A DNA stretch of 51,638 nt from Rhodovulum steppense (lineage in GTDB: Bacteria > Pseudomonadota > Alphaproteobacteria > Rhodobacterales > Rhodobacteraceae): NCBI RefSeq assembly GCF_004339675.1, contig NZ_SLVM01000024.1:1-51638 (forward strand), in the 5' to 3' direction. Shown here in pieces: positions 766 through 38,128 of the stretch. A program made the translations under genes and the position numbers. Numbering within the stretch: the stretch's first letter is position 1; every line of letters starts with the position of its first letter. The notes beneath the pieces are model-generated. The model had not been told where the DNA came from. It made no database searches and saw nothing but the letters and a program-made list of their open reading frames with translations.

Positions 766-1371
766 TTAGTGCTTGGTAGGCCTGTTGCGCCGCCGCACGG
801 CGCCCATGAGGCCTAGCCCCCCCAACAGAAGCAAGGCAGTAGCCGGAAGCGGGATCACCTCGATCACGCTGGCTTCGGTATAGGACAGTGTTGCCGTCAC
901 GGTATCTCCATCCCCGAAATCGTCGACGAGTTCGCTGAAGAGCATCTCTACCACCGTCTTGCCGTCAGCCAGAAGCGTGTCGAGGAGGCCTCCCGGAAGA
1001 CCGAGGCTCAACGAGAAGATACAATCGTCCTGTGAGGAGAAGGTGACGCCCGGAATGGTCGTCGCTGCGGTGCTGATCGTGCAGGTATAGCTGCCCAGGA
1101 ACTCTTCATCCGCCAGCAGCGTAAAGAACTCGCCCGGGTCCGTGATATCCAGACCCGGGAATTGCGGGGTGGTCAGAGCGGGCCCGGTCGCGATGGTCAG
1201 GATGCCCCCGGTGCCGTCGCTCGGGGCGAGTCCGGTGAACTCGAAGGCGAGATCGTTCGCGAAACCGCCCGCTCCGGTCACCGTCCGCGTGATGCTGACG
1301 GTTGCTGCCTGCGCGACAGAGCCGCAAACCACCAAAAAGCCCGCCGCGGCGAGCACAGCCGTCCTAATCAT
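766..1371 (-). CDS. VPLPA-CTERM sorting domain protein
   Basis: 201 aa. The start chosen at 1371 has a strong upstream GGGGG and begins directly with a signal peptide (MIRTAVLAAAGFLVVCGSVAQA, cleaved after AQA). The mature region has beta-rich, low-charge character typical of exosortase substrates and two Cys pairs. The C-terminus has the tripartite sorting signal: IPLPATALLLLGGLGLMG, with the IPLPA motif and transmembrane helix, then a basic RRRNRPTKH tail. In the VPLPA-CTERM family this is recognised by XrtD-type exosortases, and one lies in this window at 10447-12051. The protein is therefore probably exported, anchored in the inner membrane, then cleaved and released or attached at the surface. 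The cargo domain itself is not recognised. Confidence 0.9.
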   Translation of the reverse strand: MIRTAVLAAAGFLVVCGSVAQAATVSITRTVTGAGGFANDLAFEFTGLAPSDGTGGILTIATGPALTTPQFPGLDITDPGEFFTLLADEEFLGSYTCTISTAATTIPGVTFSSQDDCIFSLSLGLPGGLLDTLLADGKTVVEMLFSELVDDFGDGDTVTATLSYTEASVIEVIPLPATALLLLGGLGLMGAVRRRNRPTKH

Positions 1372-1565
1372 GTCTACCCCCAAAATCTCGTACTGTGGCG
1401 TTCCGCCGGAAGGCGCCCATCGGACATGTCCCGATGCGGACACGGAAAACCACAACACCCCATGGGACAGGGTATCTATCGGGGATTTGCCTTACAAGCC
1501 TTCATGGGAAGGGAGGAACTCCGCTTCCGGCTGAATCCTACCGGGCGCACAGGGTACCGGCGCGG

Positions 1566-2738
1566 CTATGCCCCGGTGCCGACGAAGTCCAGCAGGGCTG
1601 TCCGGCGGCGATCCGCGACCTGATCCCAGCCATAGAAGGGTGCATCCGCCAGGGCCTGGGCGCCGAGGGCAAGGCGCAGATCCTCGGTCTCGTGCAGCCG
1701 GGTCAGGGCTGCGGCCAGGGCCTCGGCATCGGAGGGGGGCACGACCAGCGCGTTCGATCCGTCCCTGGCGATCCAGCCGCCGCCCATCGGGGTCGCGACC
1801 AGGGGCAAGCCGTAACCGGCCGCCTCGTAGATGACCTGAGGGCCGCCTTCTTCGAGCGAGGGAAAGACGAAGACATCGGCCTCGCGATAGACCCGGCCGA
1901 TATCCTTGACGAGCCCCATGAGGCGCACGGTGCCGGGGATGTCCCCCAGCAGCCGCGCGCGCATCTCGTCGCTGGCGAAGGGCCGTTCGACCGGACCCGC
2001 CAGCCACAGCTCGGCAGGAAGCGCCGCCCGCCGCCAGGCCTCCATCAGCGTGTGCAGGCCCTTGCGCAGGGCGATGAGCCCGACATAGAGGAACCGCAGG
2101 GGTCGGCCCGCGGTGCCGCCGGGCCGCCGGTGGGGCGGATCAGGGGGCTGAAAGGCCCCGTAGCTTGCGGGCAGGATCGCGGGAACGGCGGTTTCGCTCT
2201 CGCGGATCGAAGGCTCCACGAAGGGGCCGGGGGCAAAGATCGCGTCGGCCTGCCGGACCCGGTCGCCTTCCTGTCGAAGGGTTGCTTCGGTGTAATAGGG
2301 GTAGTGGGGCATGCCCATGCGGTCGCATTCCACATCGAGGATCCGCTTGGCATGAGCCACATGGGTGTTGATGAACTCGATCACGATGCGGCCGCCGCGG
2401 GCGCGGGCTTCCGCCATCGCCTCGATCGGTGCGCCGGGCCAGAAATAGCAGATATCCCCGGGGCGGACGCATTTCAGGGCCTGCGCCTGGCTGCGTCGCT
2501 CCAGAAAAGGCGCAATCCGGGGCCGGGCCGCCAGTCGGCGCCGCATCGGGCCGGGCAATCCGGCGGGCAGGGCCGGAGCCATGATCCCCGCCGGGTCCGG
2601 GCGCAGGCAGGCGGCCGTGTGCACCGTGACCGGCAGGCCCTGATCGGGCCAGTGCGAGCAGATCCGGTAACAGGTCTCGCCCGACCCCCGTCCCCAGAAA
2701 CTGGCCGGATAGAAGACGATCACGTTCGGCGATGGCAT
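1566..2738 (-). CDS. GT4-family glycosyltransferase
   Basis: 390 aa, GT-B fold. The C-terminal donor-binding half has RFLYVGLIALRKGLHTLMEA (about residues 215-234) and the GT4 signature FPSLEEGGPQVIYEAAGYG, with the E-x7-E pair at Glu297 and Glu305. It would transfer a sugar from an activated nucleotide donor to the lipid-linked repeat unit on the cytoplasmic face. The ATG at 2738 gives a hydrophobic first strand (NVIVFYPASFWG), as expected of the family. It is read in the same direction as the GT2 gene ending at 2901, with a 162-nt gap between them. Donor and acceptor cannot be read from sequence. Confidence 0.88.
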   Translation of the reverse strand: MPSPNVIVFYPASFWGRGSGETCYRICSHWPDQGLPVTVHTAACLRPDPAGIMAPALPAGLPGPMRRRLAARPRIAPFLERRSQAQALKCVRPGDICYFWPGAPIEAMAEARARGGRIVIEFINTHVAHAKRILDVECDRMGMPHYPYYTEATLRQEGDRVRQADAIFAPGPFVEPSIRESETAVPAILPASYGAFQPPDPPHRRPGGTAGRPLRFLYVGLIALRKGLHTLMEAWRRAALPAELWLAGPVERPFASDEMRARLLGDIPGTVRLMGLVKDIGRVYREADVFVFPSLEEGGPQVIYEAAGYGLPLVATPMGGGWIARDGSNALVVPPSDAEALAAALTRLHETEDLRLALGAQALADAPFYGWDQVADRRRTALLDFVGTGA

Positions 2739-2900
2739 CGGGACACTTTCTTGTCGGCTGGGACCGGTGCGGGTGCCCTTTGCCTGGCGGTTACATGCTC
2801 GGATGCCCGATCCCGCGTCTTCCTGTCAATCGCCGCAGCCGCCATAGGCGGTCTCTGTTCCCTGAAGGCGTCGACCTGACTGAACGGGCAGATCCGGCGG

Positions 2901-3800: not shown

Positions 3801-4013
3801 CGAAGCACCGATCCTTATGGATGAACAGTCTGCCTTGAGTGTCGCGGCGGCTGCGTCAGCCGCGGCTTTATGTGTCGTGTGCCGTAAGGATGGACGAACT
3901 GACGAGTCGGCACAACCGACTGTGTGGGCAGATGTCTATGGCGTGCGGCTGATCGGCGGGGTTACCTTTTTGGAGGGCAGATTCTACTCGGCCGTAGGGT
4001 GGATCGGTCCGAC

Positions 4014-4045
4014 TTCGGGAACGATGCCCATGATGGTCCTATAAT
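4014..4045 (+). promoter_or_regulatory. Possible promoter in divergent gap 3801-4175
   Basis: A perfect TATAAT hexamer lies at 4040-4045, 131 nt before the oxidoreductase start. The best upstream element, TTCGGG at 4014-4019, is a poor -35 box with a 20-nt spacer. The gap between the divergent GT2 gene and the oxidoreductase gene holds no gene that I can support. Confidence 0.25.
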
Positions 4046-5270: not shown

Positions 5271-5280
5271 GGAGATGACG

Positions 5281-6132: not shown

Positions 6133-6228
6133 CCATGTGATATGCCGTCCAGGGAGTGTGAACTGCGATCCGCGGAGCGGACGCGGGGTCGGGTTCGGAA
6201 GGCATGATCCCATACGGGGAGAGACAGC

Positions 6229-7161: not shown

Positions 7162-7162
7162 C

Positions 7163-7981
7163 ATGAAGCATGAGACCGGCCTGAACAGTACCTTCCTGAA
7201 GCCGTCCACCCCCTTGCGGCAGGTGCCGATCCTGAACGCCTGGGTCCATGACGTGAGCATGGACGAGGTGGTGGCGGATTTCACCGAAGGCGCGCTGCTG
7301 ACGCTGCATGTCGACATGATCATGAAGTTGCAGCAGGATCGCGATTTCCACGCGATCCTCGAGCAGTTCGACCTGGTCACCTGCGACAGCCAGATCATGT
7401 ATTTCGCGCTGAAATTCCTCGGCGCGCCGGTTCGGGAACGGGTCTCGGGTTCGGATTATTTCCCGCGCTTCTACATGCATCACAAGGACAACCCGGAGGT
7501 CACGGTGTTCCTGTGCGGCGGCAAGCCCGGGATCGCCGATCTGGCCGCAAGCAACATCAACGCGAAGGTCGGCCGGCGGATGATCGTCGGCACCGATGCG
7601 CCCGCCTTCGATTTCGAGACGAAACCGGGCGAGATCGAGCGGATGATCGAGGCGATCAACGCCTCCGGCGCCACGGTCTGCCTGGTGGGCCTGGGCGGCG
7701 GACGGCAGGAAAAGTTCATCGTGAAATACCGCGACCGGATGCCGAATGTCCGGCTCTGGCTGCCCCTGGGCGGCACCATCGACTACGAAAGCGGCACCTT
7801 CGCCCGCCCGCCCGCCTGGATCACCGAGGCGGGGTTCGAATGGCTCTACCGGCTGCTGCGCGAGCCCCGCGCGCGGTTCCACCGCTACGTGATCCACGAG
7901 CCGCCCTTCCTCTGGGCGGTGCTGAAGCAGAGGCTGGGGCTCTACCGGAATCCGTTCGTGGGTGGGAGGGCAGGTTCGTGA
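7163..7981 (+). CDS. WecB/TagA/CpsF-family glycosyltransferase (GT26)
   Basis: 272 aa from the ATG at 7163, which has AGGAAG upstream and follows the previous stop by one base. It matches the GT26 family throughout: DSQIMYFALKFLGAPVRERV then SGSDYF, and the late signature VCLVGLGGGRQEKFIVKY near residue 190. The family adds N-acetylmannosamine(uronic acid) or similar sugars to undecaprenyl-linked acceptors. The usual ADG before the first motif is CDS here. The window also encodes a UDP-N-acetyl-sugar dehydrogenase (12244-13560) that could supply an N-acetylhexosaminuronic acid donor; this link is inference. Confidence 0.88.
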   Translation: MKHETGLNSTFLKPSTPLRQVPILNAWVHDVSMDEVVADFTEGALLTLHVDMIMKLQQDRDFHAILEQFDLVTCDSQIMYFALKFLGAPVRERVSGSDYFPRFYMHHKDNPEVTVFLCGGKPGIADLAASNINAKVGRRMIVGTDAPAFDFETKPGEIERMIEAINASGATVCLVGLGGGRQEKFIVKYRDRMPNVRLWLPLGGTIDYESGTFARPPAWITEAGFEWLYRLLREPRARFHRYVIHEPPFLWAVLKQRLGLYRNPFVGGRAGS

Positions 7982-8003
7982 TGGCCGCTTCGATTCGCGA
8001 CAC

Positions 8004-8987
8004 ATGTCGGATGCTGCACAGATGAGGCTTCCAGACTTTTTCATCATTGGGGCAGCGAAAGCTGGGACGACAACCCTACATGCTATGCTCGATAGACATC
8101 CGGGCATATTCATGTCCCACCGAAAAGAGCCGGAATTTTTCGCGCGTGACGAGCTCTATGAGAAGGGATTGTCTGAGTATGCAAGGCATTTCGAGAATGC
8201 CTTGCCCAATCAGCTTGTTGGAGAGGCATCGACCATCTATTCGCTGTCTCCACTGTTCCCGCATACCGCCAGCCGCATTGCGCGCCATATCCCAGATGCG
8301 AAGATCATCTATGTTATGCGTGAACCGGTTTCGCGCGCCTATTCCTATTATTTGCAGATCATCAAGAACTATCAGAATGTCACCCGAGACATGCGCGTAA
8401 ATCGGAGATTTGAGGAGTTTGTGATCTCAGAGCGGCACGCCTCGGCAGCACCCCGCGAGTTGGTCTTCTCGTCCACCAATTCTCATTTGCCGGACGTGCC
8501 CGATCTCTGTCTGGCTGGCAGCGACTATGTGCGTCAGATCGATGCCTATCTAGAGCATTTCCCAAGATCGCAGATGCTGTTTCTACTTTTTGAGGAGTTC
8601 TCTGCCAATCCCAGTTCGGTGGTTCGAAAGATAACGGATTTTCTCGGTATGGCGCCACTCGATGAACAGATACTGCGAGATGACGCACTGGTTCGGAACG
8701 TTTCCAATCGGCATTTTGAAGATTTGGAGGCCGCGAGAAGCCTTTCTAAGTTGCGGGATAAGTTAGGATTTCTTTGGCCTGCACGGAAGGCACTACCCAA
8801 AAACATGCGCGCTCCTTTGATAAGATTACTGTGCCAGAGTAATGAGAGGGGGAGCATGCCCTTGCCGATGGAGCCCGGAACGCGTGATATGTTGTATAGT
8901 CAGTATCGCTCGCAATTCCAGAGATTGTCGGTGCTCACCGGGCTGGACTTTTCGCCTTGGGTGAAGGTCTCTGACGAGGCAGAGTGA
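8004..8987 (+). CDS. Sulfotransferase-family protein
   Basis: 327 aa from ATG 8004; ATG 8022, just before LPDFF, is an equally possible start and neither has a clear ribosome binding site. The 5'-phosphosulfate loop of PAPS-dependent sulfotransferases is FFIIGAAKAGTTTLHAML near the N-terminus. The 3'-phosphate-binding region follows at KIIYVMREPVSRAYSYY. It would transfer sulfate from PAPS to a sugar hydroxyl, giving a sulfated EPS. Codon use is visibly more AT-rich than in the preceding genes, suggesting separate acquisition. A second, GC-rich sulfotransferase lies at 22782-23630. No PAPS-synthesis genes are in the window. Confidence 0.88.
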   Translation: MSDAAQMRLPDFFIIGAAKAGTTTLHAMLDRHPGIFMSHRKEPEFFARDELYEKGLSEYARHFENALPNQLVGEASTIYSLSPLFPHTASRIARHIPDAKIIYVMREPVSRAYSYYLQIIKNYQNVTRDMRVNRRFEEFVISERHASAAPRELVFSSTNSHLPDVPDLCLAGSDYVRQIDAYLEHFPRSQMLFLLFEEFSANPSSVVRKITDFLGMAPLDEQILRDDALVRNVSNRHFEDLEAARSLSKLRDKLGFLWPARKALPKNMRAPLIRLLCQSNERGSMPLPMEPGTRDMLYSQYRSQFQRLSVLTGLDFSPWVKVSDEAE

Positions 8988-8996: not shown

Positions 8997-9000
8997 GCGT

Positions 9001-10395
9001 TCAGATTTGGGAGAACGTGATTAAATTCCCTATTGAATCTGCATTCAGCCAGATGGCGATGGCTGCGATCGCGACCGCAAGGGCGCCATAAACTAGATCA
9101 TGGGTCCGGTCCCAGCCGGCATAACGGCGTGTCGCGTTGACCAAGATCGGGTAAACGATTAGCGCCGCCAAGCCCGGAGCGGCAACTGCGCCGACAATCC
9201 CAAAATATCTGACTCCCACGATCAGAAGCGTGGTCTGAACAATTGCTGTAGCGATGATCCTATCAGCATAGCGTCTGGAATCTCCGGCTGCCAGCATCAG
9301 CGAGCCATAGCTGCTCAGGATCACCATAGGCATCTGTGAAATCGACAGCAGAACCATAATTGGTCCCGCCAGCGCATAGCGCGGATCGTAGAGCAAATCC
9401 ACCAATAGAGTGCCCGACATGGCTAGGATGGCCGATAGCCCTAGAAGCCCACCGGTCATCCGCCAGCGTATGTAGAAGATCTTGCGCCGGTTCTCCGCGC
9501 TCTCCCAAGTCGGCCGCTGCTTGTAGAGAGGAAAGACGATCTTGCTGGCCAGCGGACGACCCAGAAGCAGCGGCACGCTGGCTAGGAAGAACCCTACCGT
9601 ATAGATGCCCAGCATCTCCAGGGTGATGAACTTGCCCAGGATCGCACGGTCGGCATGGTTCACCATGAAACCGGCGGCGCTGCTGATGAAGATCCACTTG
9701 CCGAAGTGGAAGAGTTCGCCGAATGCCGTGCGCTCGATCTGGAAGCGGTCGCGATGACCCGGCAGGGCGTAGTGGAACAGGGCCAGGCTGATTGCGGCGC
9801 TGGCGAGCGAGCCGATGACCAGCGCCCAGACCGAGTGGAGCAGGATGGCCAGGGCGACCATGATCAGGATGCCGAGAACCTGGGCGGTGATCCTGATGAT
9901 CGTCAGCCTGCCCATGACCAGATCGCGGTTGGCCGTGTAGATTCGCGTGGGATTGAAGCCGCTGATCACGATGGCAAGGCCGGCTACGGGCAGCATCTGC
10001 GCGAGCCGCGGGTCGTCGTAGAACGCGGCCAGAGGCCAAGCGAAGGCGCATGCCAGAAGCCACAACAGCAAGCCGCGCAGCACCTGCAACGTCCAGGCGG
10101 TATTGAGAAAGGCCGGTTCGCGGCTGCGGTTGTTCTGAATGATCGACGGCCCGAAGCCTGTATCCGACATCATGCTCATCCCGGTCAGGAAGACCTGAAT
10201 CAAGGCCATGAGCCCGAAAGCCTCGGGAAAGAGCAGGCGCGTCAGCACCAGATTGGAGGCCAGGCGCAGAACGTTGTGAGACAGCATTTCCCCCAGCGTC
10301 CAGAGCGTGCTTCTGGCAGCACGGGCCTTGAGGCTGTCGCCGCGCAGAAGACTGCTGAGCCTGTGGGGCGGGCGAAGGAAGAAAAAGGCCATCAT
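9001..10395 (-). CDS. Wzx-type polysaccharide flippase (MOP superfamily)
   Basis: 464 aa integral membrane protein with about 12-14 hydrophobic segments. The N-terminal block, RSTLWTLGEMLSHNVLRLAS then TRLLFPEAFGLMALI, is characteristic of the polysaccharide_synt/MVF-like flippases (LPRLPEEFGL pattern). It would move the undecaprenyl-diphosphate-linked repeat unit across the inner membrane to the polymerase. It is convergent with the sulfotransferase gene and lies 51 nt beyond the stop of xrtD in the same direction, so the two are probably co-transcribed. No strong ribosome binding site precedes the ATG at 10395 (next ATG 10392). Confidence 0.88.
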   Translation of the reverse strand: MMAFFFLRPPHRLSSLLRGDSLKARAARSTLWTLGEMLSHNVLRLASNLVLTRLLFPEAFGLMALIQVFLTGMSMMSDTGFGPSIIQNNRSREPAFLNTAWTLQVLRGLLLWLLACAFAWPLAAFYDDPRLAQMLPVAGLAIVISGFNPTRIYTANRDLVMGRLTIIRITAQVLGILIMVALAILLHSVWALVIGSLASAAISLALFHYALPGHRDRFQIERTAFGELFHFGKWIFISSAAGFMVNHADRAILGKFITLEMLGIYTVGFFLASVPLLLGRPLASKIVFPLYKQRPTWESAENRRKIFYIRWRMTGGLLGLSAILAMSGTLLVDLLYDPRYALAGPIMVLLSISQMPMVILSSYGSLMLAAGDSRRYADRIIATAIVQTTLLIVGVRYFGIVGAVAAPGLAALIVYPILVNATRRYAGWDRTHDLVYGALAVAIAAIAIWLNADSIGNLITFSQI

Positions 10396-13560: not shown

Positions 13561-13721
13561 GTTCTCGAAATCTCCACCACATGCCGGCCTCATGCGATCC
13601 GGCAGTTGCCTTCTCCCGCAGAAAACCGTTCCGGGTCTCTTTTGCAAACCGATTGTGGACATTCTGGGACAACAGCCACCGGATGCTTGCCTGAATGACG
13701 GCGCTCGGGCAGAACCGGCGC

Positions 13722-14669: not shown

Positions 14670-14672
14670 GCG

Positions 14673-22780: not shown

Positions 22781-22781
22781 C

Positions 22782-28338: not shown

Positions 28339-28364
28339 GATTTTTTCTCGGTACGGCGCCGGGG

Positions 28365-29915
28365 TCAGTTCGTGCCGGTCGCGCCAGGCATCTGCCCGGC
28401 CGGGAACTGGGAACGATCCAGACCGGGACTGGACCATAGTGCGGGCAGCAGCGCGGTCGCCAGGACGAAGGACACACCCAGAAGCCGCCGACGCCGCACC
28501 AATCTGCCATCCCTGGCGCGCATATGGGGGATCGTGGTGATGGGCGTGATATTGAATCGGCCGGTCAGTTCGCCCGGGCTACGGATATTCCGGTTCAGGA
28601 GTTCCAGAAGCACGAAATAGGCTGCTGCAAGCCCAATGCCTGCCACCGCCCCCAGGGCTGCCACCTTTGACCGGTTGGGGCCCGTGGGCACTTGGGGAAC
28701 GCTGGCATTCTCGATCACACTGACGCGTTGTCCCTGGGCGGTGCTTTCGATCCGTTCGCTCATCCTGGCCTGATTGAGGTTGGCCACAGCGGCGTTGTAG
28801 CGGGTCTGGATCATCTGGTAGTCACGTTCCAGACTGGCCAGCTGGATGCCGTTTGCCGCACTTTGCGAGATCGCGCGCTGCAGTCCGTCCAATTCCTCTG
28901 TGGTATCTGCTATATCGCTATCGAGTGTCGCGATCTGGTTGTCGATCTGGGAGAGGGTTGCATCGAGCAGCGCCTGTTCCGGCGAGACCTCTCCGCCCTC
29001 GCCGGTCAGCCCGGCCGCAGTCTGGGCGGCAACGACGGCTTCCAGCCGGTCAACCATTGCCTGCAGCCGGATCACCCGGGGGCTCTGGTCGGAATAGACT
29101 GACCTCGCGTTCTCGAGTTCTGCCCGGGCCACGATCAGGCGTTCCTCCTCTGGAGAGCGGCGACGCCCGATCCCCTCGATCGAGCTGATCCGGCCGGTGG
29201 TCTCGAAGATGCGCAGGAAATCCTGGCGCTGAGACTGCAACGCCCTGAGATCACGCTCCAGCCGGGACAGCCGTTCCTGAAGCAGGGTCTGTCGGCCGAG
29301 CCGGTAGCTTTGTTCCTCGGGTAAGGCCTCGGCGTTCTCGGACTTGAAGGTCGCGATCGCCGTACTCTGGCGGTCGAGCTCCTGGCCCAGTCGCTGCACT
29401 TCCTGCTCGAAGAACGAGAGCGTGCTTTCCGCGCGCGAGGTCCGGAAGCGCGCGTTTTCCTGAAGCACCAGCGTGACATATTCGTTGACGACATCCGCCG
29501 CGATCCGGCCGGAATGCGAAGAGAAGCTGATCGTCATCAGCGTCGCCTGCTCGCGCCCCGCACTGCGCCGGATCCGCGTCGAGGACCGCATCTTGCTCAC
29601 CACCGCGTCGGGCTCCATCTGCCGGATGTCGGGAAAGACGCGGAAGCGGTTGGCGATGTCTATGAGGTTCGCTCGGGTCAACAGGCGCTGCTCGATGATG
29701 TCGAGCTGTTCTGTCGCCCCGGTCTGCACCGTCGAGACGACCATGTTGTCCGGGATTTGCGGGGCTTCGACGAGCAGGCGGGCGGAGGTCTCGTAGGTCT
29801 CGGGCAGCTTGAATGCCGCGACAATGCCGCCAGCCACGCCGATCAGCACGAAGAGCGCCATCACCGGCAGGCGGCGCAGGAACAGGGCCCAGTAGAGCTG
29901 CAGGTCGAAATTCAT
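28365..29915 (-). CDS. Wzz/GumC-like chain-length determinant (polysaccharide copolymerase)
   Basis: 516 aa. An N-terminal membrane helix (LPVMALFVLIGVAGGIVAAF) is followed by a Wzz domain (PETYETSARLLVEAPQIP) and then about 250 residues of coiled coil (Gln/Glu/Arg/Leu-rich, roughly 165-400). A second membrane segment VAALGAVAGIGLAAAYFVLL ends the periplasmic part. After it come a basic cytoplasmic stretch and, unusually, a third hydrophobic segment (LLGVSFVLATALLPAL). It regulates polymer length with the polymerase and kinase. It overlaps the upstream ATPase gene by four bases (ATGA). Confidence 0.88.
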   Translation of the reverse strand: MNFDLQLYWALFLRRLPVMALFVLIGVAGGIVAAFKLPETYETSARLLVEAPQIPDNMVVSTVQTGATEQLDIIEQRLLTRANLIDIANRFRVFPDIRQMEPDAVVSKMRSSTRIRRSAGREQATLMTISFSSHSGRIAADVVNEYVTLVLQENARFRTSRAESTLSFFEQEVQRLGQELDRQSTAIATFKSENAEALPEEQSYRLGRQTLLQERLSRLERDLRALQSQRQDFLRIFETTGRISSIEGIGRRRSPEEERLIVARAELENARSVYSDQSPRVIRLQAMVDRLEAVVAAQTAAGLTGEGGEVSPEQALLDATLSQIDNQIATLDSDIADTTEELDGLQRAISQSAANGIQLASLERDYQMIQTRYNAAVANLNQARMSERIESTAQGQRVSVIENASVPQVPTGPNRSKVAALGAVAGIGLAAAYFVLLELLNRNIRSPGELTGRFNITPITTIPHMRARDGRLVRRRRLLGVSFVLATALLPALWSSPGLDRSQFPAGQMPGATGTN

Positions 29916-30793
29916 TCTGCGGCCTTCCCGAAACTGTCGAGCGGCTCGGCCAGCAACAGCGGATCGCCGAGCGGCTTGAGGATCAGCCCGTCGCGCACCA
30001 GTTCGCGGATCGTGCCCACGCCGACCTTGTCCTGGTCTGCGCTCGAGGCATAGACGAGCGCCAGATCGCAGAGCTTGTTCACCACGCGCGGTATGCCTCC
30101 GGATTCCTCGAAGATGCAGCGGGTCGCCTCGGGGGTGAATTCCTTGCCCGTCCCGCCAACGTGCTGCAGCCTGTGTGCGATATAGTCACGGGTCGTGGCG
30201 ATATCCATCGGCTCGAGATGGTAAACCGCCATCACCCGCTGGGCGAACTGCCTCAGTTCGGGGCGGCGGATCAACTCGCGCAGCTCGGGCTGGCCGACCA
30301 GGATGATCTGCAGCAGCTCGTCCTTGCCCGAGTTGATGTTGGTGAGCATGCGCAGCTCTTCCAGCGTCTCGGCGCCGAGGTTCTGCGCCTCGTCCACGAT
30401 CAGCGCGACATGGCGCCCGGCGGCGTATTCGTCGAGCACGAAACCCTGGAACTGCTGGAACAGCGAGACATAGTCGGCCCCCGGCGTCACCGCGACGTCC
30501 AGCGCGTTCAGCACCCAGCGCAGCAGATCCCCCCGCCCGCCCTGGGCGTTCGAGATCAGGCCCACGGTCACCTCGTCATCGACCCGCCGCAGGAGCGCCT
30601 GGATCAGCGTGGTCTTGCCGGTTCCCACCTCGCCGGTGACCACGGTCAGCGGCGCACGCGTTACAAGCCCGTATTCCAGCACCGAGAAGGCCCGGGCGTG
30701 GGCCCGTGTCCAGAACAGGAAGTCCGGGTCCGGCACCAGCGAGAAGGGCCGCTCGGTAAAGCCGAAATGGGCGTTGTAGAGGGAGCTGCTCAT
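29912..30793 (-). CDS. ExeA-like AAA ATPase (exosortase/EPS-cluster associated)
   Basis: 293 aa. It starts with the ExeA-type YNAHFGFTERPFSLVPDPDF. Walker A is TGEVGTGKTTLI (Lys60) and Walker B is ALIVDEAQNL (Asp134, Glu135). The C-terminal lid region includes GGIPRVVNKLCDLALVYA. Proteins of this type accompany XrtA-class EPS/exosortase loci next to Wzz and kinase genes, as here, although their exact role in export is not established. It is first in a leftward three-gene unit with the Wzz-like and kinase genes. The upstream sequence contains GAGGAGG about 40 nt before the ATG. Confidence 0.87.
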   Translation of the reverse strand: MSSSLYNAHFGFTERPFSLVPDPDFLFWTRAHARAFSVLEYGLVTRAPLTVVTGEVGTGKTTLIQALLRRVDDEVTVGLISNAQGGRGDLLRWVLNALDVAVTPGADYVSLFQQFQGFVLDEYAAGRHVALIVDEAQNLGAETLEELRMLTNINSGKDELLQIILVGQPELRELIRRPELRQFAQRVMAVYHLEPMDIATTRDYIAHRLQHVGGTGKEFTPEATRCIFEESGGIPRVVNKLCDLALVYASSADQDKVGVGTIRELVRDGLILKPLGDPLLLAEPLDSFGKAAE

Positions 30794-31294: not shown

Positions 31295-31987
31295 ATGACA
31301 TTGTATTTGAACGACTTGAACGCGGACGGGCAGGCGAGGCCGGTATTCGGACCCGTACCCCGCCACCACAAAGGCCCTGCCGGGGTCTATCGTGCCATCC
31401 TCAAACGCATGCTCGATCTGGTCCTGGTCATCCTGACCGCGCCCTTCAGCGTGCCGCTGATCCTTTTCATGGCACTGCTCGTCACCACCGACGGGCACCG
31501 ACCGTTCTACACACAGCTGCGCGTCGGTCGGAACGGAAAGGCCTTCCGGCTGTGGAAGCTTCGCACGATGGTTCCCGATGCCGACCGGATCCTCGAGGAC
31601 TATCTCGCCCGGAACCCGGTGGCCCGGCTGGAATGGACCGCGACGCAGAAGCTCAAGCGCGACCCACGGATCACCCCGGTCGGACGTTTCCTGCGCAAGA
31701 CCTCGCTCGACGAGTTGCCGCAGCTCATCAACGTGCTGAACGGAACGATGTCGCTGGTCGGCCCGCGACCGATGATGGTGGCCCAGAAGCCGTTCTATCC
31801 CGGCACCGCCTATTACGATCTGCGCCCCGGCATCACTGGACTTTGGCAGATTTCCGACCGCAACGAGTGCGATTTCGTCGGCCGCGCGCCCTATGACGAG
31901 CAATATCACCGGGTCCTGTCCTTCTGGACCGATCTCGTCGTCCTGTTCCGGACCGTCGCGGTCGTGCTGCGCGGGACCGGCTACTGA
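31295..31987 (+). CDS. Undecaprenyl-phosphate sugar phosphotransferase (ExoY/WcaJ-type, initiating enzyme)
   Basis: 230 aa from ATG 31295. A short N-terminus and one membrane hairpin (DLVLVILTAPFSVPLILFMA) precede the catalytic domain. The family motifs are present: LWKLRTMVPDAD, RFLRKTSLDELPQLINVL with the essential Asp-Glu pair, SLVGPRPM and RPGITGLWQISDR. It attaches the first sugar-1-phosphate to undecaprenyl phosphate and so starts repeat-unit synthesis. Its small size (no extra N-terminal helices) fits the ExoY/PglC-like class. It begins the rightward export operon and is followed by a strong hairpin at 32039-32070. Confidence 0.93.
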   Translation: MTLYLNDLNADGQARPVFGPVPRHHKGPAGVYRAILKRMLDLVLVILTAPFSVPLILFMALLVTTDGHRPFYTQLRVGRNGKAFRLWKLRTMVPDADRILEDYLARNPVARLEWTATQKLKRDPRITPVGRFLRKTSLDELPQLINVLNGTMSLVGPRPMMVAQKPFYPGTAYYDLRPGITGLWQISDRNECDFVGRAPYDEQYHRVLSFWTDLVVLFRTVAVVLRGTGY

Positions 31988-32038
31988 CCGGCAATTGAAC
32001 GATCCATGGCTTGCGTGCAGGCCGTGGGTTCGAAAGAT

Positions 32039-32070
32039 AGAAGGGCAGGCCACTCGTGGCCTGCCCTTCT
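32039..32070 (+). terminator. Strong 15-bp hairpin between sugar transferase and TPR lipoprotein genes
   Basis: AGAAGGGCAGGCCAC (32039-32053) pairs perfectly with 32056-32070. The downstream sequence (GCGGCACTTCG) is not T-rich. It may be a partial terminator or an RNA-processing/stability element that sets lower or separate expression for the downstream export genes; the next start is 33 nt away. Confidence 0.55.
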
Positions 32071-32103
32071 GCGGCACTTCGATTGAACGAAGGATCCTGT
32101 CCC

Positions 32104-34557
32104 GTGCGTGTTCTGACCCGACTGCTTCCCGCCGCCCTTCTGGGCTCCACGCTGATGCTCTCGGCCTGCCAGTCCTCCGAGGACAAGGCCGAAGGCCATT
32201 ACCAGGCCGCCCTCGACCTGATTGCGGAGCGCGACTACGACCGCGCCATCGTCGAGCTGCGCAACGTTTTCCAGAACGACGGCTTCCATCGCGAGGCACG
32301 TTACCGCTTCGCCGAGTTGATGCTGAACCACCGCGGCAACCGGCAGGAGGCCTACAGCCAGTACCTGCGCCTCGCCGAACAGTACCCGGACGATCTGGAA
32401 GCGCGGATCGCCCTGACCGAACTTGCCTTCGGCTCCAATCTTTGGGACGAGGTGGAGCGCCATGGCAGCAAGGCGGAGGAATTGGCTCCGGAGGATCCCC
32501 GGGTCGAAGCCATCGCCGTGATGCGGTCCTATCGTGCTGCTATCCTGGCCCAGAACGGTGCGGGCCGTAGCGAGGCGGCGCGTCGTGCGGATGCCCTGCT
32601 GTCCGAACAGCCCGACAACTTCCTGTTGCGCAATGTCATGATCGACAATGCGCTGCGAGAGTCCGACCTGCCCCGAGCGTTGGCCGAAATCGACAAGGTG
32701 ATCGCTCAACAGCCTGACGATCCTCGCTACTATCAGGAGCGGCTGCGGGTTCTCGGCGGACTCGGTGACATGGGGGCGATCGAGGCACAGTTGCGCCAGA
32801 TGATCGAGCGCTTTCCCGACGACGTGAACAACAAGGCGATGCTGGTGCGCTTCTACCTCTCGCAACAGGATGCTGATGGGGCCGAGGCCTTCTTGCGCGA
32901 GCTTGCTTCAGCCTCGGCGCCCGAGGATTCTGGTCCCACGGTGGACCTGATCCGCTTCCTCGCCGAGGTGCGCGGCGCCGAGGCTGCCCGGGCCGAGATC
33001 GACAAGGCGATCGCTGAACGGCCCGACCCGGTGCCGTTCCAGGTGCTGGGCGCGGGGCTCGATTTCGCCGCTGGCAAACGCGACGGGGCGATCGCCACGC
33101 TTGAGGAGGTCCTGAAGGGAGCGGAACCGTCCGAACAGACCCGAAACATCAAGGTCGCATTGGCGCGCATGTTGTTGACCACTGGCAACGAGGTGGGCGC
33201 GCGGACCCGGGTCGAGGAGGTTCTTGCCGAGGAGGCGACGCATCCAGAGGCGCTCAAGATGCGTGCGGCCTGGCTGATCGAGGCCGACGATACCGATACC
33301 GCGATCGCGGCGCTTCGGACTGCACTCGACCGCACCCCGGAAGACGCGCAGGCGATGTCCCTGATGGCTGAGGCCTATTCCCGTTCGGGCCGAGCCGAGC
33401 TTTCGCGCGACTTTCTGGCGCTGGCCGTTGAGGCCTCGGGAAACGCGCCCGCTGAGACCATCCGCTATGCACGGGTCCTGATCGGTGGTGAAAGCTACCT
33501 GTCGGCCGAGGACATCCTGATCAAGGCGCTCCGGTCCACGCCCGACAATCCCGACCTTCTGGTGGTGCTGGGCGAGCTTTACCTGCGGATGGAGGATTTT
33601 CCCCGGGCACAGCAGGTCGCCGACACGCTTCGGCGTCTGGACGATCCGGCGGCGTTGCAGGCCGCCAACGGGCTTGATGCGGAACGGATCAACCGACAGA
33701 GCGGCACCGAAGAGGCCATGGCCTTCCTCGAACAGCTGGCGAGCAGTGCGGACGCGACACTGGCCTCGCGGATCGCCCTGATCCGAGCCCGGATGGCGAC
33801 CGGCGACACCGCGGGTGCGTTGGAACAGGCGCAGGTCCTGAAGCAGGAAAACCCCGGCAACGAGGCGCTGGATTTCGTGCTGGCCACGGCGCATGCAGTC
33901 AACGGCGATCTGGCCGGGGCTGAGGCAATCTATCGCGACCTTGTCGCAACCAACCCGGCCCGGCCGGGGGTCTGGCTGGAAATCTCGCGGGTTCAGCAAC
34001 GCCAGGGCGACCGGGCCGGTGCCATGGCCGCGATCGACGAGGGGTTGGGCCACACGCCCGGAGACGGGCAGCTGTTGTGGGCCCGGGCCTCCTTCCTGGA
34101 ACAGGATGGCGAGATCGACGGGGCCATCGCGATCTATGAGGATCTTTACGAGCGCAATTCCTCGTCGCTGGTCATCGCGAACAACCTTGCCAGCCTTCTG
34201 GCCACCTATCGCCAGGACGAGGCGAGCCTCGAACGCGCCTGGACCATCGCCCGGCGCCTGCGCGACGCCGAGGTGCCGGCGGTTCAGGACACTTATGGCT
34301 GGATCGCCCACAGGCGCGGCGAAAGCGCCGAGGCGCTGCCCTATCTCGAGGCTGCGGCCCGGGGGCTGCCTGGCGATGCGCTGGTCCAGTATCACTTGGC
34401 CCAGGCCTATCTGGCGCTCGGCCGACAGGACGAGGCCCTGGACCAGTTCCGCAAGGCTGTCGAGATCGCTGGTCCCGGTGACAGCCGCGCGCAGATCGAG
34501 GAGGCTCGGCGTCAGATGCATGCCCTGCAGGCGTCCGGAAGCGCCTCCGAGAACTGA
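32104..34557 (+). CDS. TPR-repeat lipoprotein, PrsT-like (EPS/exosortase system)
   Basis: 817 aa starting at GTG 32104, with AAGGA eight bases upstream. The N-terminus is a lipoprotein signal with lipobox LSAC (about residues 19-22: LMLSACQSS). The rest is almost wholly helical tetratricopeptide repeats (for example GHYQAALDLIAERDYDRAIV and LVQYHLAQAYLALGRQDEAL), about 18-20 units. It resembles PrsT, the TPR lipoprotein of PEP-CTERM/exosortase clusters. It probably sits in the periplasm, tethered to a membrane, as a scaffold linking polymerase, export channel or exosortase substrates. It is followed by the export protein gene after 145 bp. Confidence 0.87.
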   Translation: MRVLTRLLPAALLGSTLMLSACQSSEDKAEGHYQAALDLIAERDYDRAIVELRNVFQNDGFHREARYRFAELMLNHRGNRQEAYSQYLRLAEQYPDDLEARIALTELAFGSNLWDEVERHGSKAEELAPEDPRVEAIAVMRSYRAAILAQNGAGRSEAARRADALLSEQPDNFLLRNVMIDNALRESDLPRALAEIDKVIAQQPDDPRYYQERLRVLGGLGDMGAIEAQLRQMIERFPDDVNNKAMLVRFYLSQQDADGAEAFLRELASASAPEDSGPTVDLIRFLAEVRGAEAARAEIDKAIAERPDPVPFQVLGAGLDFAAGKRDGAIATLEEVLKGAEPSEQTRNIKVALARMLLTTGNEVGARTRVEEVLAEEATHPEALKMRAAWLIEADDTDTAIAALRTALDRTPEDAQAMSLMAEAYSRSGRAELSRDFLALAVEASGNAPAETIRYARVLIGGESYLSAEDILIKALRSTPDNPDLLVVLGELYLRMEDFPRAQQVADTLRRLDDPAALQAANGLDAERINRQSGTEEAMAFLEQLASSADATLASRIALIRARMATGDTAGALEQAQVLKQENPGNEALDFVLATAHAVNGDLAGAEAIYRDLVATNPARPGVWLEISRVQQRQGDRAGAMAAIDEGLGHTPGDGQLLWARASFLEQDGEIDGAIAIYEDLYERNSSSLVIANNLASLLATYRQDEASLERAWTIARRLRDAEVPAVQDTYGWIAHRRGESAEALPYLEAAARGLPGDALVQYHLAQAYLALGRQDEALDQFRKAVEIAGPGDSRAQIEEARRQMHALQASGSASEN

Positions 34558-34702
34558 AGCGGGCAAGGGAGGGCGGCTGCCCCCCGTGCGTGACAGCGGC
34601 ACTACACCTCGCCGTGCGATACGGCGGGCGGCGCATTATGGCCTTTTCTTGCCCGGCCATGCCGACGAGAATGACGCCAATTCTGGCAGGAAGGCAGAGA
34701 GC

Positions 34703-35320
34703 ATGCTGTATTTGAAACGTATCGCGTCCGGTCTGGTCTTGGCCCTGATGGCGACGGCTACGGCGACGATGGCGGTCGCGCAGCAGGAATACCGGGTCCG
34801 GCCCGGCGACACGCTCGCCATCGAGGTGCTTGAGGATACCAGCCTCAACCGCGCGGTGGTTGTGCTGCCTGACGGGCGGATCAGCTTTCCCTTCGCCGGT
34901 TCTGTCCTGGTCGCGGGCCGCACGATCTCCGAGATCGAACAGGCGATCATCGCGGGGATCGGCCCGAACTTCGCGGTCACGCCGAATGTCTTCGTTTCGG
35001 CCCAGCCCGGCGACCGCGCGGCCTATGCCTCGGGCCCGGCGGCCGTCGGCATCTATTTTCTGGGCGAGGTGAACAGGCCAGGCCTGATCGAGGTCGCGCG
35101 CGGGACGACCTTCCTGCAGGCTCTGGCGCAATCGGGCGGGGTGACCCGCTTTGCCGCGACCAAGCGTATCCAGCTGCGCCGCACCGATCCGCGCTCGGGC
35201 GCGCAGACGGTCTATCGGATCGACTACCGGGCGCTGAGCGCAGGGGCCGCGCTAAAGCAGGACATCCGGCTTCAGGATGGCGACGTGATCCTGGTGCCGG
35301 AGCGGCGCCTGTTCGAGTGA
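34703..35320 (+). CDS. Polysaccharide export protein (Wza-like, Poly_export + SLBB)
   Basis: 205 aa from ATG 34703, with AGGAAGG and AGAGAG upstream; longer in-frame starts lie inside the TPR gene's other frames and are rejected. A Sec signal (ATATATMAVAQQ, cleaved after AQ) is followed by the Poly_export domain (YRVRPGDTLAIEVLEDTSLN, LPDGRISFPFAGSV) and an SLBB domain starting near IYFLGEVNRPGLIEVARGTT. The mature N-terminus has no lipobox Cys and the protein is short, as in exosortase-cluster export proteins. It forms the periplasmic/outer-membrane conduit together with the adjacent beta-barrel. Confidence 0.92.
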   Translation: MLYLKRIASGLVLALMATATATMAVAQQEYRVRPGDTLAIEVLEDTSLNRAVVVLPDGRISFPFAGSVLVAGRTISEIEQAIIAGIGPNFAVTPNVFVSAQPGDRAAYASGPAAVGIYFLGEVNRPGLIEVARGTTFLQALAQSGGVTRFAATKRIQLRRTDPRSGAQTVYRIDYRALSAGAALKQDIRLQDGDVILVPERRLFE

Positions 35321-35324
35321 TCCG

Positions 35325-36665
35325 ATGGCCGGTTTCTGGGCACGCGGTCTGACAGGGGGGCTCGCCGCGGCGAGCCTCGTCCTCGTGGAGGCCCCGCAGG
35401 CATCTGCCCAGGAGGCTGCGGGCGGCCTTGTGGCCGATCTGCGTTTCTCGCAGCGCCTGACCTGGGAGGATGACGATTTCTACGCCACGACCGGGATCGG
35501 GCTGGCGCTCACCAGCGGGACCCGCACCTCCTCGTTCGGTCTCTTCCTCGATGGCGGGCTGGAACTTGGGGCGGAGGGCGAGTCGGGCATCACCCTTGCC
35601 GATCCGATCCTGCGCCTGACCTTCGGCCACGAGTCCCCGTCCAGTGCGCTCGACCTGTCGTTGCGCTACCGCGAATCCGATGTCGACACGCTGTTCGAGG
35701 AGGATGTGTTCGGACAGGACGTCCTGATCTTCGACGAAGGCACCCGCAAGGATCTCTCGAGCAGCCTCGGTTTCGTCTTCGGACGCGATGCGCCCTTCGG
35801 CGGCAGCCTTGATCTGGGCTACAGCACGCGCCGCTATTCCGGAACCTCCGATCCCTCGCTTGTGGACGAGGACCGGACCAGCGCCGCACTGGCGCTGCGC
35901 TTCGATATCGATCCGCGCATCCGTGCCAGCCTGCGTGCCTCGGTGGACGAGACCGACCGCGATGGGGCGGGGCGCGACATCCGCAACGAAAGCCTCGGTG
36001 CCGGGCTCGATCTTTCGGTGACGCAGACGCTGACGGCCGGGCTCTTCGTTGGCCAGACCCGCATCGTGGAGAGCGGGGCAGGACCGCGCAGCATCGAGGA
36101 GGGGCTGGCCTATCGGCTGTCGCTGACCGAAGTGCGGCCGAACGGTACGCTATCAGGCAGCCTTGTCTCGGATATCGACGAGGTCGGACGACGCACCACC
36201 GCCCGGATCGACCGCGATCTGGAGCTGCGCGCGGGCAGGCTGCGGGCAGGTGTCGGTGTCAGCGAAGGCACGGATGGCGACACACGCCCGCTGGTCAGCC
36301 TCGCCTGGACGCAGGATCTGCCCCGGGGATCCTTCGGGATCACGCTGGACCAGGCCTTCACCACCGATTCCGACGGAGAAGAGGCGCTCAACAGCCAGAT
36401 CGGCCTGTCCTGGCGGCGGGAATTGACGCCGCTGTCCAGCCTGCAGACCGGCATCCGGCTACGCGACACCGACTTCCTGGGCTCGGGCGCCGGGGCGGAT
36501 ACCCGCAAGACCAGCCTCGATCTGGTCTATCGCCACGCGCTGGCCGGGGACTGGGACATGCTGGGCGGCTACAGCCATACGGTGTCCCAGAAGGAAGGGA
36601 CCTCCCGCACGCATTCCGACGAGGTCTTCATCGGCCTCGAGAAGAGGGTCCAGTGGCGGTTCTGA
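35325..36665 (+). CDS. Outer-membrane beta-barrel protein of the EPS export operon
   Basis: 446 aa, starting 4 nt after the export-protein stop. Signal peptide AAASLVLVEAPQASA/QE, then alternating polar/hydrophobic strands throughout (for example LDLSLRYRESDVDTLF, FGITLDQAF, SLDLVYRHAL) and a terminal Phe (KRVQWRF), the C-terminal signature of outer-membrane barrels. About 16-18 strands can be counted by eye. In exosortase-linked EPS loci a barrel protein of this size (PEP-CTERM/XrtA outer-membrane type) sits next to the Wza-like gene and may complete the outer-membrane pore. Its last 13 bases overlap the rhomboid gene. Confidence 0.83.
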   Translation: MAGFWARGLTGGLAAASLVLVEAPQASAQEAAGGLVADLRFSQRLTWEDDDFYATTGIGLALTSGTRTSSFGLFLDGGLELGAEGESGITLADPILRLTFGHESPSSALDLSLRYRESDVDTLFEEDVFGQDVLIFDEGTRKDLSSSLGFVFGRDAPFGGSLDLGYSTRRYSGTSDPSLVDEDRTSAALALRFDIDPRIRASLRASVDETDRDGAGRDIRNESLGAGLDLSVTQTLTAGLFVGQTRIVESGAGPRSIEEGLAYRLSLTEVRPNGTLSGSLVSDIDEVGRRTTARIDRDLELRAGRLRAGVGVSEGTDGDTRPLVSLAWTQDLPRGSFGITLDQAFTTDSDGEEALNSQIGLSWRRELTPLSSLQTGIRLRDTDFLGSGAGADTRKTSLDLVYRHALAGDWDMLGGYSHTVSQKEGTSRTHSDEVFIGLEKRVQWRF

Positions 36666-37294
36666 GCCGCGGTAGCCTTCTTCTGTTCGGGCTGATCCTG
36701 GCCTGCAGCGGGATCGAACTGGCCCTGTGGCTGGCCGACAAGGGGCTGATCGAGCCCCCCCGGCTGCGCCAGATCGCCTATGATTACGGCGGCTTCTGGC
36801 CTGGGCTGCTGAAGGGCTGGAAGCCGAACTATCCCGCGCAACCTTATGCGATGTTCCTGACCTATGGCTTCCTGCATGGCGGGCTCGCGCATCTTGTGGT
36901 GAACATGATCACGCTCTGGTCGCTGGGGCGCGCGGTGCTGGACCGGGTCGGGGCGAGCGGCTTCGTACTGCTCTATACCGGCTCGATCCTGGGCGGCGCG
37001 GCAGGTTTTGCGCTTCTTGCCTCGGGCTTGCGTCCCATGGTCGGTGCCTCGGGGGCGCTGTTCGGGCTGGTGGGGGGAATTCTCGCCTGGGCCTATGTCG
37101 ACCGCTTCACCCATCGTGAGCGGCTCTGGCCGGTAGCGCGCGTTGTGCTGCTGCTGGTGGGGCTGAACGTGGTACTCTGGTGGGCCATGCACGGGCAACT
37201 GGCCTGGGAAACCCATCTGGGCGGTTTCGTCGTTGGGTGGGTGCTGGCGTTGCTGATCGACCCCAGGCCGGTGGAGCGGGAGCCCGCGGATTGA
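36653..37294 (+). CDS. Rhomboid-family intramembrane serine protease
   Basis: 213 aa from GTG 36653, with GAGGG five bases upstream; it overlaps the barrel gene by 13 bases. About six membrane segments. The catalytic serine is Ser133 in VGASGALFGL (GxSG motif) and the catalytic histidine is His188 in ETHLGGFVVGW. The oxyanion-helix motif HGGLAHLVVNM is at 75-85. It cleaves membrane-spanning helices. Location in the EPS/exosortase operon suggests substrates among locus proteins, such as CTERM-tailed proteins or the export machinery; this is inference. It is the last gene of the rightward unit. Confidence 0.92.
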   Translation: MAVLSRGSLLLFGLILACSGIELALWLADKGLIEPPRLRQIAYDYGGFWPGLLKGWKPNYPAQPYAMFLTYGFLHGGLAHLVVNMITLWSLGRAVLDRVGASGFVLLYTGSILGGAAGFALLASGLRPMVGASGALFGLVGGILAWAYVDRFTHRERLWPVARVVLLLVGLNVVLWWAMHGQLAWETHLGGFVVGWVLALLIDPRPVEREPAD

Positions 37295-37417
37295 TTTCTT
37301 TCGGGGCGACGGATCCGCGCTGCAGCTGACGCCGGTGCGCGCAACGCCGGGCGATACCGGCCATGCTCGATGCACGTCTTCCTGGAACCGAGGGCGGGGA
37401 CGTACACCAGAAACCAA

Positions 37418-37441
37418 AACGGCGGCCTTCAGGCCGCCGTT
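37418..37441 (-). terminator. Intrinsic terminator for leftward VPLPA gene
   Basis: AACGGCGGCC and GGCCGCCGTT form a perfect 10-bp GC-rich stem with a TTCA loop (TGAA on the minus strand). On the minus strand it is followed by TTGGTTT (and the stem itself ends in TTT), consistent with Rho-independent termination 22 nt after the stop codon of the VPLPA-CTERM gene. Confidence 0.8.
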
Positions 37442-37462
37442 ACGACGGGTTCATCGACCAGT

Positions 37463-38128
37463 CTACGCTTTCTTGCGCCGCGCAACCACGCCAAGCCCGC
37501 CGAGGCCAGCCAGCAGCAGCCATCCGGCCGCCGGAAGCGGGATCGGCGCGAGGGCGAACTCGAGTGCGGCCGAAGTCGAAGCGAAGGTGATCGAATCGAA
37601 GCCGCTCTCGAAATCGAGGAACTTGACCAGTGCAACCACCTCGTAGTTCGTCGCCGGATCAAGACCGATCGCGCCGGCAACGGCGTTGCCGCCCAGCGTG
37701 TAGACGTCGGAGCCGCCAAGCTTGAACGTCACCGAGTTGTAGCTGTCGATCGATCCCCAGAGCATGGTGAAGGCCTGCTGCACCTCGGTAAAGCTCAAGG
37801 TAACGGGCGAAACCGCACCCAGACCGGGACCGCCGCCCGGCTGAGTCGAGAAGTAGTCAACCGTCTCCGTCAATCCGTTGCTGTTGAACGGAGATTGGAA
37901 GTCGCCCGGGTCATTTCCGGGCGGCACGTTGATCACCACGTCAGGTTTGTCCCAGCTGGCCCCAATGGGTGTGTGTGCCCCATAACCCACGGCAAAGTCG
38001 ATCCCTGCCTTGTTCTCCGTGCCTTGTTCGCTCCAATCCAGAACGCTGAAGGTCGCCGCCGAAGCCGCGCCCGCCAGGCCCACCGCGGCCACTGCGGCGA
38101 GAGCCGTTGCCTTCACAAATGTCGTCAT
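37463..38128 (-). CDS. VPLPA-CTERM sorting domain protein
   Basis: 221 aa from ATG 38128, with GAGGGGGAT upstream. Signal peptide FVKATALAAVAAVGLAGAAS, cleaved after ASA. The mature region (about residues 27-195) is beta-rich with Gly, Asn and Asp and no Cys. The C-terminus has PIPLPAAGWLLLAGLGGLGV followed by VARRKKA, a typical VPLPA-CTERM signal for XrtD. It faces away from the EPS operon with its own terminator. The cargo motif is not recognised; similar secreted proteins are common exosortase substrates. Confidence 0.92.
   Translation of the reverse strand: MTTFVKATALAAVAAVGLAGAASAATFSVLDWSEQGTENKAGIDFAVGYGAHTPIGASWDKPDVVINVPPGNDPGDFQSPFNSNGLTETVDYFSTQPGGGPGLGAVSPVTLSFTEVQQAFTMLWGSIDSYNSVTFKLGGSDVYTLGGNAVAGAIGLDPATNYEVVALVKFLDFESGFDSITFASTSAALEFALAPIPLPAAGWLLLAGLGGLGVVARRKKA

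Follow-up and report, generated by a model that had tools for sequence, protein, structure and literature searches.

A rhomboid protease linked to the XrtD exosortase of Rhodovulum steppense and its relatives, and a possible second enzyme for VPLPA-CTERM tails

Which enzymes act on the VPLPA-CTERM tails of a bacterial genome, and does the presence of such tails always imply the exosortase XrtD? This question is raised by a locus of Rhodovulum steppense (Rhodobacteraceae) that fills most of the window analysed here, a stretch of 51,638 bases that makes up one complete contig (NZ_SLVM01000024.1) of a genome of 3.66 Mb in 70 contigs. The locus is an XrtD/VPLPA-CTERM sorting system combined with a Wzx/Wzy-type cluster for the synthesis and export of an exopolysaccharide (EPS), and it also holds the gene of a rhomboid intramembrane serine protease. 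We conclude that this rhomboid is very probably a genuine component of the XrtD/EPS system. Judging from sequence comparisons, we give about an even chance (roughly 0.5) to the further reading that VPLPA tails are acted on by a dedicated rhomboid, whether alongside XrtD or in its place.

The XrtD module and its rhomboid gene

A first-pass annotation of this DNA had proposed a complete XrtD/VPLPA-CTERM module within a sulfated-EPS locus at 766-38128. Searches with hidden Markov models bear out the module: the exosortase fused to EpsI matches the XrtD model TIGR04152 far above its curated cut-off (Table 1), and no other Xrt-type model scores better or passes its own cut-off, the next being XrtW (247 bits, cut-off 425) and XrtA (147 bits, cut-off 208). 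An exosortase of another subfamily can therefore be dismissed, the runner-up XrtW being so far below its threshold. The general exosortase models TIGR02602 and TIGR04178 are over cut-off on the same protein, as expected, and so is the EpsI domain TIGR02914 (141 bits, cut-off 42.8). Cys197, Arg242 and His263, which we take to be the active site, stand exactly where the annotation had placed them. No other exosortase in the genome passes the cut-off (a second match reaches 13.4 bits), and the closest named XrtD, in a search that may omit very near kin, is that of Rhodovulum marinum at 81%.

The two tailed proteins predicted at the ends of the locus both pass the cut-off of the tail model TIGR03370, the first only just; the second also carries an Npun_F0296 domain (43.3 bits, cut-off 29). 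A genome-wide count, suggested along with the module, gives 16 tails over cut-off and three weaker ones, with two of the 16 on this contig. Adjoining the second protein, just beyond the end of the annotated range, is a possible third whose translation ends in VPVPP, a helix and RR; its TIGR03370 score stays below the cut-off of 25.35. The VPLPA tails share an architecture of motif, helix and basic cluster, and the parts of PMC3237569 and PMC11980579 covered here describe tails of this build as handled by exosortases and rhombosortases.

Taken alone, the XrtD/VPLPA-CTERM/EPS module is already known and ordinary. As for its being complete, XrtD, tails and EPS genes are indeed all present, but the rhomboid gene, which lies inside the annotated range, had gone unmentioned. 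It starts within the last 13 bases of the gene for an outer-membrane beta-barrel protein, and an identical 13-base overlap is found in Rhodovulum sp. P5 (barrel 6627-7988, rhomboid 5947-6639). The protein belongs to the rhomboid family both by its PF01694 domain score and by its catalytic Ser133 and His188; these two residues, together with His80 and Asn84, are invariant in 24/24 members of its clade and likewise in eight non-clade sequences, and the catalytic residues presumably correspond to those of GlpG. An AlphaFold2 model from six sequences (mean predicted local distance difference test score, pLDDT, 73; predicted template-modelling score 0.74; much of residues 45-62 with pLDDT below 50) has GlpG structures as its top matches, nine of them at E <= 0.001 with template-modelling scores of 0.64-0.72 by target. 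The best NCBIfam model is that of rhombosortase (TIGR03902), but the score of 27.4 bits is far from the cut-off of 84, and an ordinary rhombosortase was set aside on this ground. In the plasmid records that we opened, the protein carries no annotation beyond "rhomboid family intramembrane serine protease".

Linkage of the rhomboid and XrtD across the family

We surveyed 394 genomes of the family, from 393 genera, with a rhomboid profile (A1) of 23 members. Co-occurrence was counted at >=215 bits, a cut-off chosen after the leave-one-out scores were known (22/24 clade scores lie above it, 8/8 non-clade scores below). A first sample of 120 family genomes held XrtD in 24 and a rhomboid match at E <= 1e-15 in 28. 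Across all 394, XrtD is present in 92 and the rhomboid in 71, and the two go together: the rhomboid occurs in 52/92 genomes with XrtD as compared with 19/302 without it (Fisher p = 4.5e-24). The association holds at cut-offs of 150 or 200 bits (p = 2e-26 and 3e-27).

The two genes also lie close together. For spacing we took every rhomboid match at E <= 1e-45 (156 bits and up); all 50 pairs that share a contig lie within 42.1 kb, and 28 of them within 1.3 kb, the latter all on the same strand and in 25 cases with the rhomboid downstream of XrtD. The recurrent order in the XrtD stretches, which come from 23 genomes beside the window, is WbaP - PrsT-like - Wza-like - barrel - XrtD - rhomboid, with the ATPase, chain-length and kinase genes divergent from this row. 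There are variants: in the window and in genome G080 (we use such handles where genomes must be told apart) the rhomboid comes after the barrel gene, with XrtD at another place in the island; in G048 and G118 the rhomboid comes after the barrel or the PrsT-like gene, and XrtD lies on a different contig. G101 provides a natural control, since its sole rhomboid match at E <= 1e-15, a non-clade one, shares a contig with XrtD but at a distance of more than 2 Mb. A diverged rhomboid hidden beside XrtD in the negative loci was also considered and set aside: the rhomboid profile found none among the open frames of the fetched loci, and none appears in the crude gene lists of G060, G043, G039, G006, G001, G116, G083 and G101 (the rhomboid of G116 is on a contig other than XrtD's).

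Plasmids repeat the pattern. Fourteen named plasmid records, several of them close relatives, carry the rhomboid (E <= 1e-20), and 13 of these carry XrtD as well, including Roseobacter denitrificans pTB2 and Rhodovulum sp. P5 pRGUI04; the fourteenth is from Rhodobacter sp. CZR27, which has XrtD on another plasmid of the same strain. On pTB2 of R. denitrificans OCh 114 the rhomboid is RD1_RS20110 and XrtD is RD1_RS20160, with VPLPA proteins RD1_RS20145 and RD1_RS20150. On pRGUI04 (L254, NZ_CP015043.1, 64 kb) XrtE (1678-3252), the rhomboid (5947-6639) and XrtD (22734-24338) are found together. In Roseobacter, Rhodovulum and Jannaschia, XrtD is encoded on plasmids some 60-130 kb in size (NC_008387.1, NC_015729.1, NC_007801.1 and others).

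VPLPA tails in genomes without XrtD

If the rhomboid acts on the tails, how do the tails fare where XrtD is missing? We counted tails in 210 of the 394 genomes: the 19 with the rhomboid and no XrtD, the 27 with XrtD and no rhomboid match, 32 of the other 65 with XrtD, and 132/283 with neither; one clade member scoring 202 bits (G067) was entered among the positives by hand for these statistics. At least three tails are held by 28/32 genomes with both genes, 11/27 with XrtD only, 16/19 with the rhomboid only and 8/132 with neither. The difference made by the rhomboid is large among XrtD-negative genomes (16/19 against 8/132 sampled, Fisher p = 4e-13) and is seen again among XrtD-positive ones (28/32 sampled against 11/27, p = 2.5e-4).

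The 16 genomes with rhomboid and tails, in which 3-20 tails are found, are almost all free of any detectable exosortase. A search with PF09721 (E <= 1), which recovered both positive controls, gave none over cut-off in 15 of the 16 (G244 has two matches, both below cut-off); the sixteenth, G141, holds an XrtE, the exosortase specific for VPEID tails (355 bits, cut-off 150), that scores 33 against 400 with the XrtD model. The exosortase-free set includes G269, a single contig at 99% completeness, and G332, G217, G128 and G106, in 10-30 contigs at 99-100%. All 20 tails taken from five XrtD-free genomes are canonical, though they were picked by model score. In 13 XrtD-free loci fetched together the rhomboid lies among genes of the export operon, beside the barrel gene in 11; in the three remaining genomes it is found beside the barrel gene (G079), beside a convergent PrsT-like gene (G106), and on a short contig of 7.6 kb that it shares with two proteins ending in VPLPA-type tails (G087). 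A tree of 48 rhomboids, which replaces an earlier one of 32, scatters the XrtD-free genomes, with 10 label changes overall and at least five forced by well-supported branches. Eight XrtD-free genera, with 3-10 tails each, form one supported block (100/96), while the tail-less rhomboid-positive genomes G179, G199 and G303 form, together with G037, a supported clade of their own outside the main one.

A rhomboid that works on the same tails is the simplest account of these genome data, and one that they support moderately. In outline, a protein that bears both a signal peptide and a VPLPA tail would be exported and then stay anchored in the inner membrane through its tail helix, the Arg cluster being inside, as the tail architecture suggests. 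XrtD would, by the habit of its family, cut the tail near VPLPA with Cys197. The rhomboid, with its Ser133/His188 dyad within the membrane, would act on the same class of tail, be it as a second sorting enzyme, as a protease that removes or clears tails, or as a shedding enzyme, and in lineages that lost XrtD it would do the job alone. The sequences show the genes, their residues, the linkage and co-occurrence, and genomes that hold rhomboid and tails but no detected XrtD; the tails as its substrate, the cut site and the partner of the protein end are what we infer. More tentative, and in our estimate rather less likely than its opposite, is the stronger form of this proposal, in which the rhomboid would carry out true VPLPA-CTERM processing, two unrelated membrane enzymes would serve one signal, often from one operon, and whole lineages would be rhomboid-only.

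Several observations weigh against a rhomboid acting on the tails. The pairing with XrtD is incomplete: 27/92 XrtD genomes have no rhomboid match at E <= 1e-45, in 15 the match is on a different contig, in G092 and G116 the rhomboid is apart from XrtD and EPS genes alike, and 12 of the 25 plasmid records with XrtD (among 72,556) lack the rhomboid. G083 (21 tails) and G101 (19) have XrtD with a non-clade rhomboid and no clade rhomboid, so XrtD can work without it. Eight XrtD-negative genomes with at least three tails are also without a clade rhomboid (G363, of the window's genus, 10 tails; G134, 16; G071, 11; G032, 9; G119, 6, with a non-clade rhomboid; G077, 4; G146, 4; G133, 3); PF09721 found no other exosortase in G032 and G119, the two of the eight that were checked. 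Tails can thus persist with neither enzyme present. The p values above overstate independence because the genera are related. A number of the XrtD-free assemblies are fragmented drafts, and the plasmids on which XrtD often resides can be lost in assembly. The split between the main rhomboid clade and the rest is weakly supported (74/86), and the sister clade (G037 L175, G179 L211, G303 L213) lies beside a WbaP-like transferase and an ExeA-like ATPase in genomes without VPLPA tails. Finally, tail composition was set aside as proof of rhomboid use: glycine at tail position 13 occurred in 37/43 tails with the rhomboid (genomes with and without XrtD pooled) and 13/27 without it in the first set, where the position had been picked, and in a second set the difference was marginal (21/25 against 11/20, p = 0.049), with 12/15 in genomes holding neither enzyme.

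Two rival readings come next in likelihood. The main one places the rhomboid in the EPS/PrsT export machinery and not in tail processing: its substrate would be some membrane protein encoded in the export operon, such as the PrsT-like lipoprotein, the WbaP-like transferase or a regulator, and shared operons would account for the link to XrtD. The neighbourhood speaks for this, since the rhomboid keeps company with WbaP, PrsT, Wza and barrel genes in most fetched loci, which again tells against action on the tails, and overlaps the barrel gene in the window; the sister clade adjoins WbaP and ATPase genes in G037, G179 and G303, genomes that lack VPLPA tails and, within the stretch, any PrsT-like gene. 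Against an export role, among the 32 genomes of the 120 that all have the export ATPase, tails are more numerous with the rhomboid (n = 19, 2-20 tails) than without it (n = 13, ten of them with 0-2; Mann-Whitney p = 0.005). The tail-less sister clade is also separate in the tree, the clade rhomboids of G092 and G116 have no export gene nearby, and that of G087 shares its small contig with two VPLPA-type tailed proteins. On balance we consider an export role unlikely, and we rate about as low the idea that the exosortase-free genomes are an artefact or decay, with XrtD on a plasmid missing from the assembly, or recently lost and the tails vestigial. It is true that XrtD is plasmid-borne in many named strains, that 8/16 of the genomes with rhomboid and tails are only 79-96% complete, and that eight genomes keep at least three tails with neither enzyme. 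Yet 15 of the 16, each of another genus and among them the single-contig G269 and the four genomes in 10-30 contigs, show no exosortase over cut-off, and the fetched tails are canonical, though picked by score; moreover, eight of the genera group together in a supported block, so that a single old loss is more probable than eight separate gaps in assemblies.

Two further alternatives fare worse. That the module is an ordinary one and the rhomboid an unrelated neighbour would fit two facts: XrtD, tails and EPS genes suffice to match the system as described, and 40/92 XrtD genomes have no rhomboid at >=215 bits. But the way in which the two genes co-occur and are spaced, both in 394 genomes and on plasmids, makes it very improbable. 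The first-pass annotation had offered a different role for the locus, in which XrtD attaches its substrates to this particular polysaccharide or releases them together with it. EPS genes surround XrtD in relatives as well as here, and according to a passage of PMC11980579 exosortases were identified as a link between PEP-CTERM signals and exopolysaccharide production. Against this, a single exosortase serves 16 proteins with tails over cut-off, of which the locus encodes just two, so there is no sign that XrtD is reserved for this polysaccharide, and much of the glycosyltransferase set around XrtD varies among relatives. The proposal thus went unsupported, and we regard it as improbable.

Were the rhomboid to act on the tails, sortase-type tags would not be bound to one enzyme family, and the annotation rule that VPLPA-CTERM implies XrtD would be incomplete. 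The linked second protease, and the species whose proteins are tagged in the presence of that protease only, provide natural experiments and a missing step that can be assayed.

The surrounding locus and known systems

The genes around XrtD and the rhomboid are collected in Table 1. The EPS of this locus is plausibly sulfated, given its two sulfotransferase genes. Among the accessory proteins named beforehand, the PrsT-like lipoprotein, the ExeA-like ATPase and the Wza exporter hold up as relatives, matching below the cut-offs of the XrtA-system models, and the barrel protein has no convincing family match (TIGR03016 10.7 bits; PF13505 20.4 bits against 28.7). None of the accessory proteins reaches the curated cut-off of TIGR02917, TIGR03015, TIGR03027, TIGR03007 or TIGR03018, and by these scores the PrsT-like, ATPase, exporter, chain-length and kinase proteins are relatives, not members, of the XrtA set.

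Table 1. Genes of the XrtD/EPS locus and the model matches of their products.
Feature	Position	Strand	Evidence
VPLPA-CTERM protein 1, tail IPLPATALLLLGGLGLMGAVRRRN	766..1458	-	TIGR03370 26.6 bits, cut-off 25.35, barely over
Gfo/Idh-like oxidoreductase	4176-5270	+	TIGR04380 101.6 bits, below cut-off 355
Protein without NCBIfam or Pfam match	5275-6132	+	Scans against both negative
WecG/TagA/CpsF glycosyltransferase	7163..7981	+	TIGR00696 93.9 bits, cut-off 69
Sulfotransferase 1	8004..8987	+	PF00685 78.8 bits, over cut-off (scanned from 7962)
Wzx-type flippase	9001..10395	-	PF13440 167.9 bits
XrtD, exosortase fused to EpsI	10447..12051	-	TIGR04152 660.4 bits, cut-off 400; Cys197, Arg242, His263
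Nucleotide-sugar dehydrogenase	12244..13662	-	TIGR03026 400 bits, cut-off 189.8
O-antigen ligase/polymerase-like membrane protein	20304..21809	+	PF04932 30.2 bits, just under 31.7
Sulfotransferase 2	22776..23630	+	PF00685 58.9 bits, over cut-off (scanned from 22707)
Tyrosine-autokinase-like protein	27520..28437	-	TIGR03018 80.8 bits, below 230.65
Chain-length determinant	28365..29915	-	TIGR03007 192 bits, below 279
ExeA-like ATPase	29912..30793	-	TIGR03015 272 bits, below 324.5
WbaP-like initiating sugar transferase	31295..31987	+	TIGR03022 264 bits, C-terminal part of model, below 403
PrsT-like TPR lipoprotein	32056..34557	+	TIGR02917 229.5 bits, below 312.2
Wza-like exporter (SLBB)	34700..35320	+	PF02563 67.9 bits; TIGR03027 99.6 bits, below 180
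Outer-membrane beta-barrel protein	35325..36665	+	Recurrent place between exporter and rhomboid or XrtD
Rhomboid intramembrane serine protease	36653..37294	+	PF01694 90.2 bits, cut-off 22.6; Ser133, His188, His80, Asn84
VPLPA-CTERM protein 2, tail IPLPAAGWLLLAGLGGLGVVARRKKA	37463..38155	-	TIGR03370 42.6 bits
Possible third tailed protein, tail VPVPPALALLASALFGLSVFRRQAA	38468..39127	+	TIGR03370 12.5 bits (place 39050-39115), below cut-off

To the right of these genes, closely similar translations at 39089-39712 and 41114-41629 flank an acyltransferase-like membrane protein (40120-41193), and a transposase-like gene, named by its sequence, follows at 41706-42857; the transposase-like gene and the similar stretches are perhaps a mobile-element border at the island's right edge. 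An ABC transporter and an HlyD-like adaptor (type I secretion, likewise named by sequence; 42951-46171, plus strand) adjoin the island, and a pair of this kind is present on Roseobacter denitrificans pTB2 too.

How does the system compare with those already described? It is closest to XrtD/VPLPA-CTERM (TIGR04152, TIGR03370), with which it shares an EpsI-fused XrtD, VPLPA tails and an EPS neighbourhood, with family cut-offs passed; it differs in that a rhomboid is linked to it here and that some genera keep tails and rhomboid without a detected XrtD. In the sources covered, neither feature belongs to the system as described: the literature covered, including PMC3237569, PMC11980579 and PMC10090131, gave no link between a rhomboid and an exosortase locus, although this coverage is partial and does not establish absence from print. 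The XrtA/PEP-CTERM system shares the types of accessory gene seen here (PrsT, ATPase, chain length, exporter), but the five accessory proteins here fall below its model cut-offs. With rhombosortase/GlyGly-CTERM (TIGR03902, TIGR03501) it has in common a protease of the rhomboid family whose distribution goes with that of a C-terminal tail made up of motif, helix and basic cluster, and the rhombosortase model is matched by 23/23 A1 members at E <= 0.01 (best E 2.7e-13), as compared with 16 and 13 for GlpG models. It differs in that the window's protein stays below the rhombosortase cut-off, the tail is VPLPA, a signal assigned to an exosortase, and the rhomboid is mostly in an EPS operon, often beside that exosortase. 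In XrtE/VPEID-CTERM (TIGR04162), finally, an exosortase is likewise coupled to a second intramembrane protease, a fused CAAX-type (Rce1-like) part (PF02517 59 bits, TIGR03008 96.5 bits). That protease is of another family and fused, whereas the rhomboid here is separate, yet by analogy XrtE offers a precedent for an exosortase that works with a second protease in the membrane.

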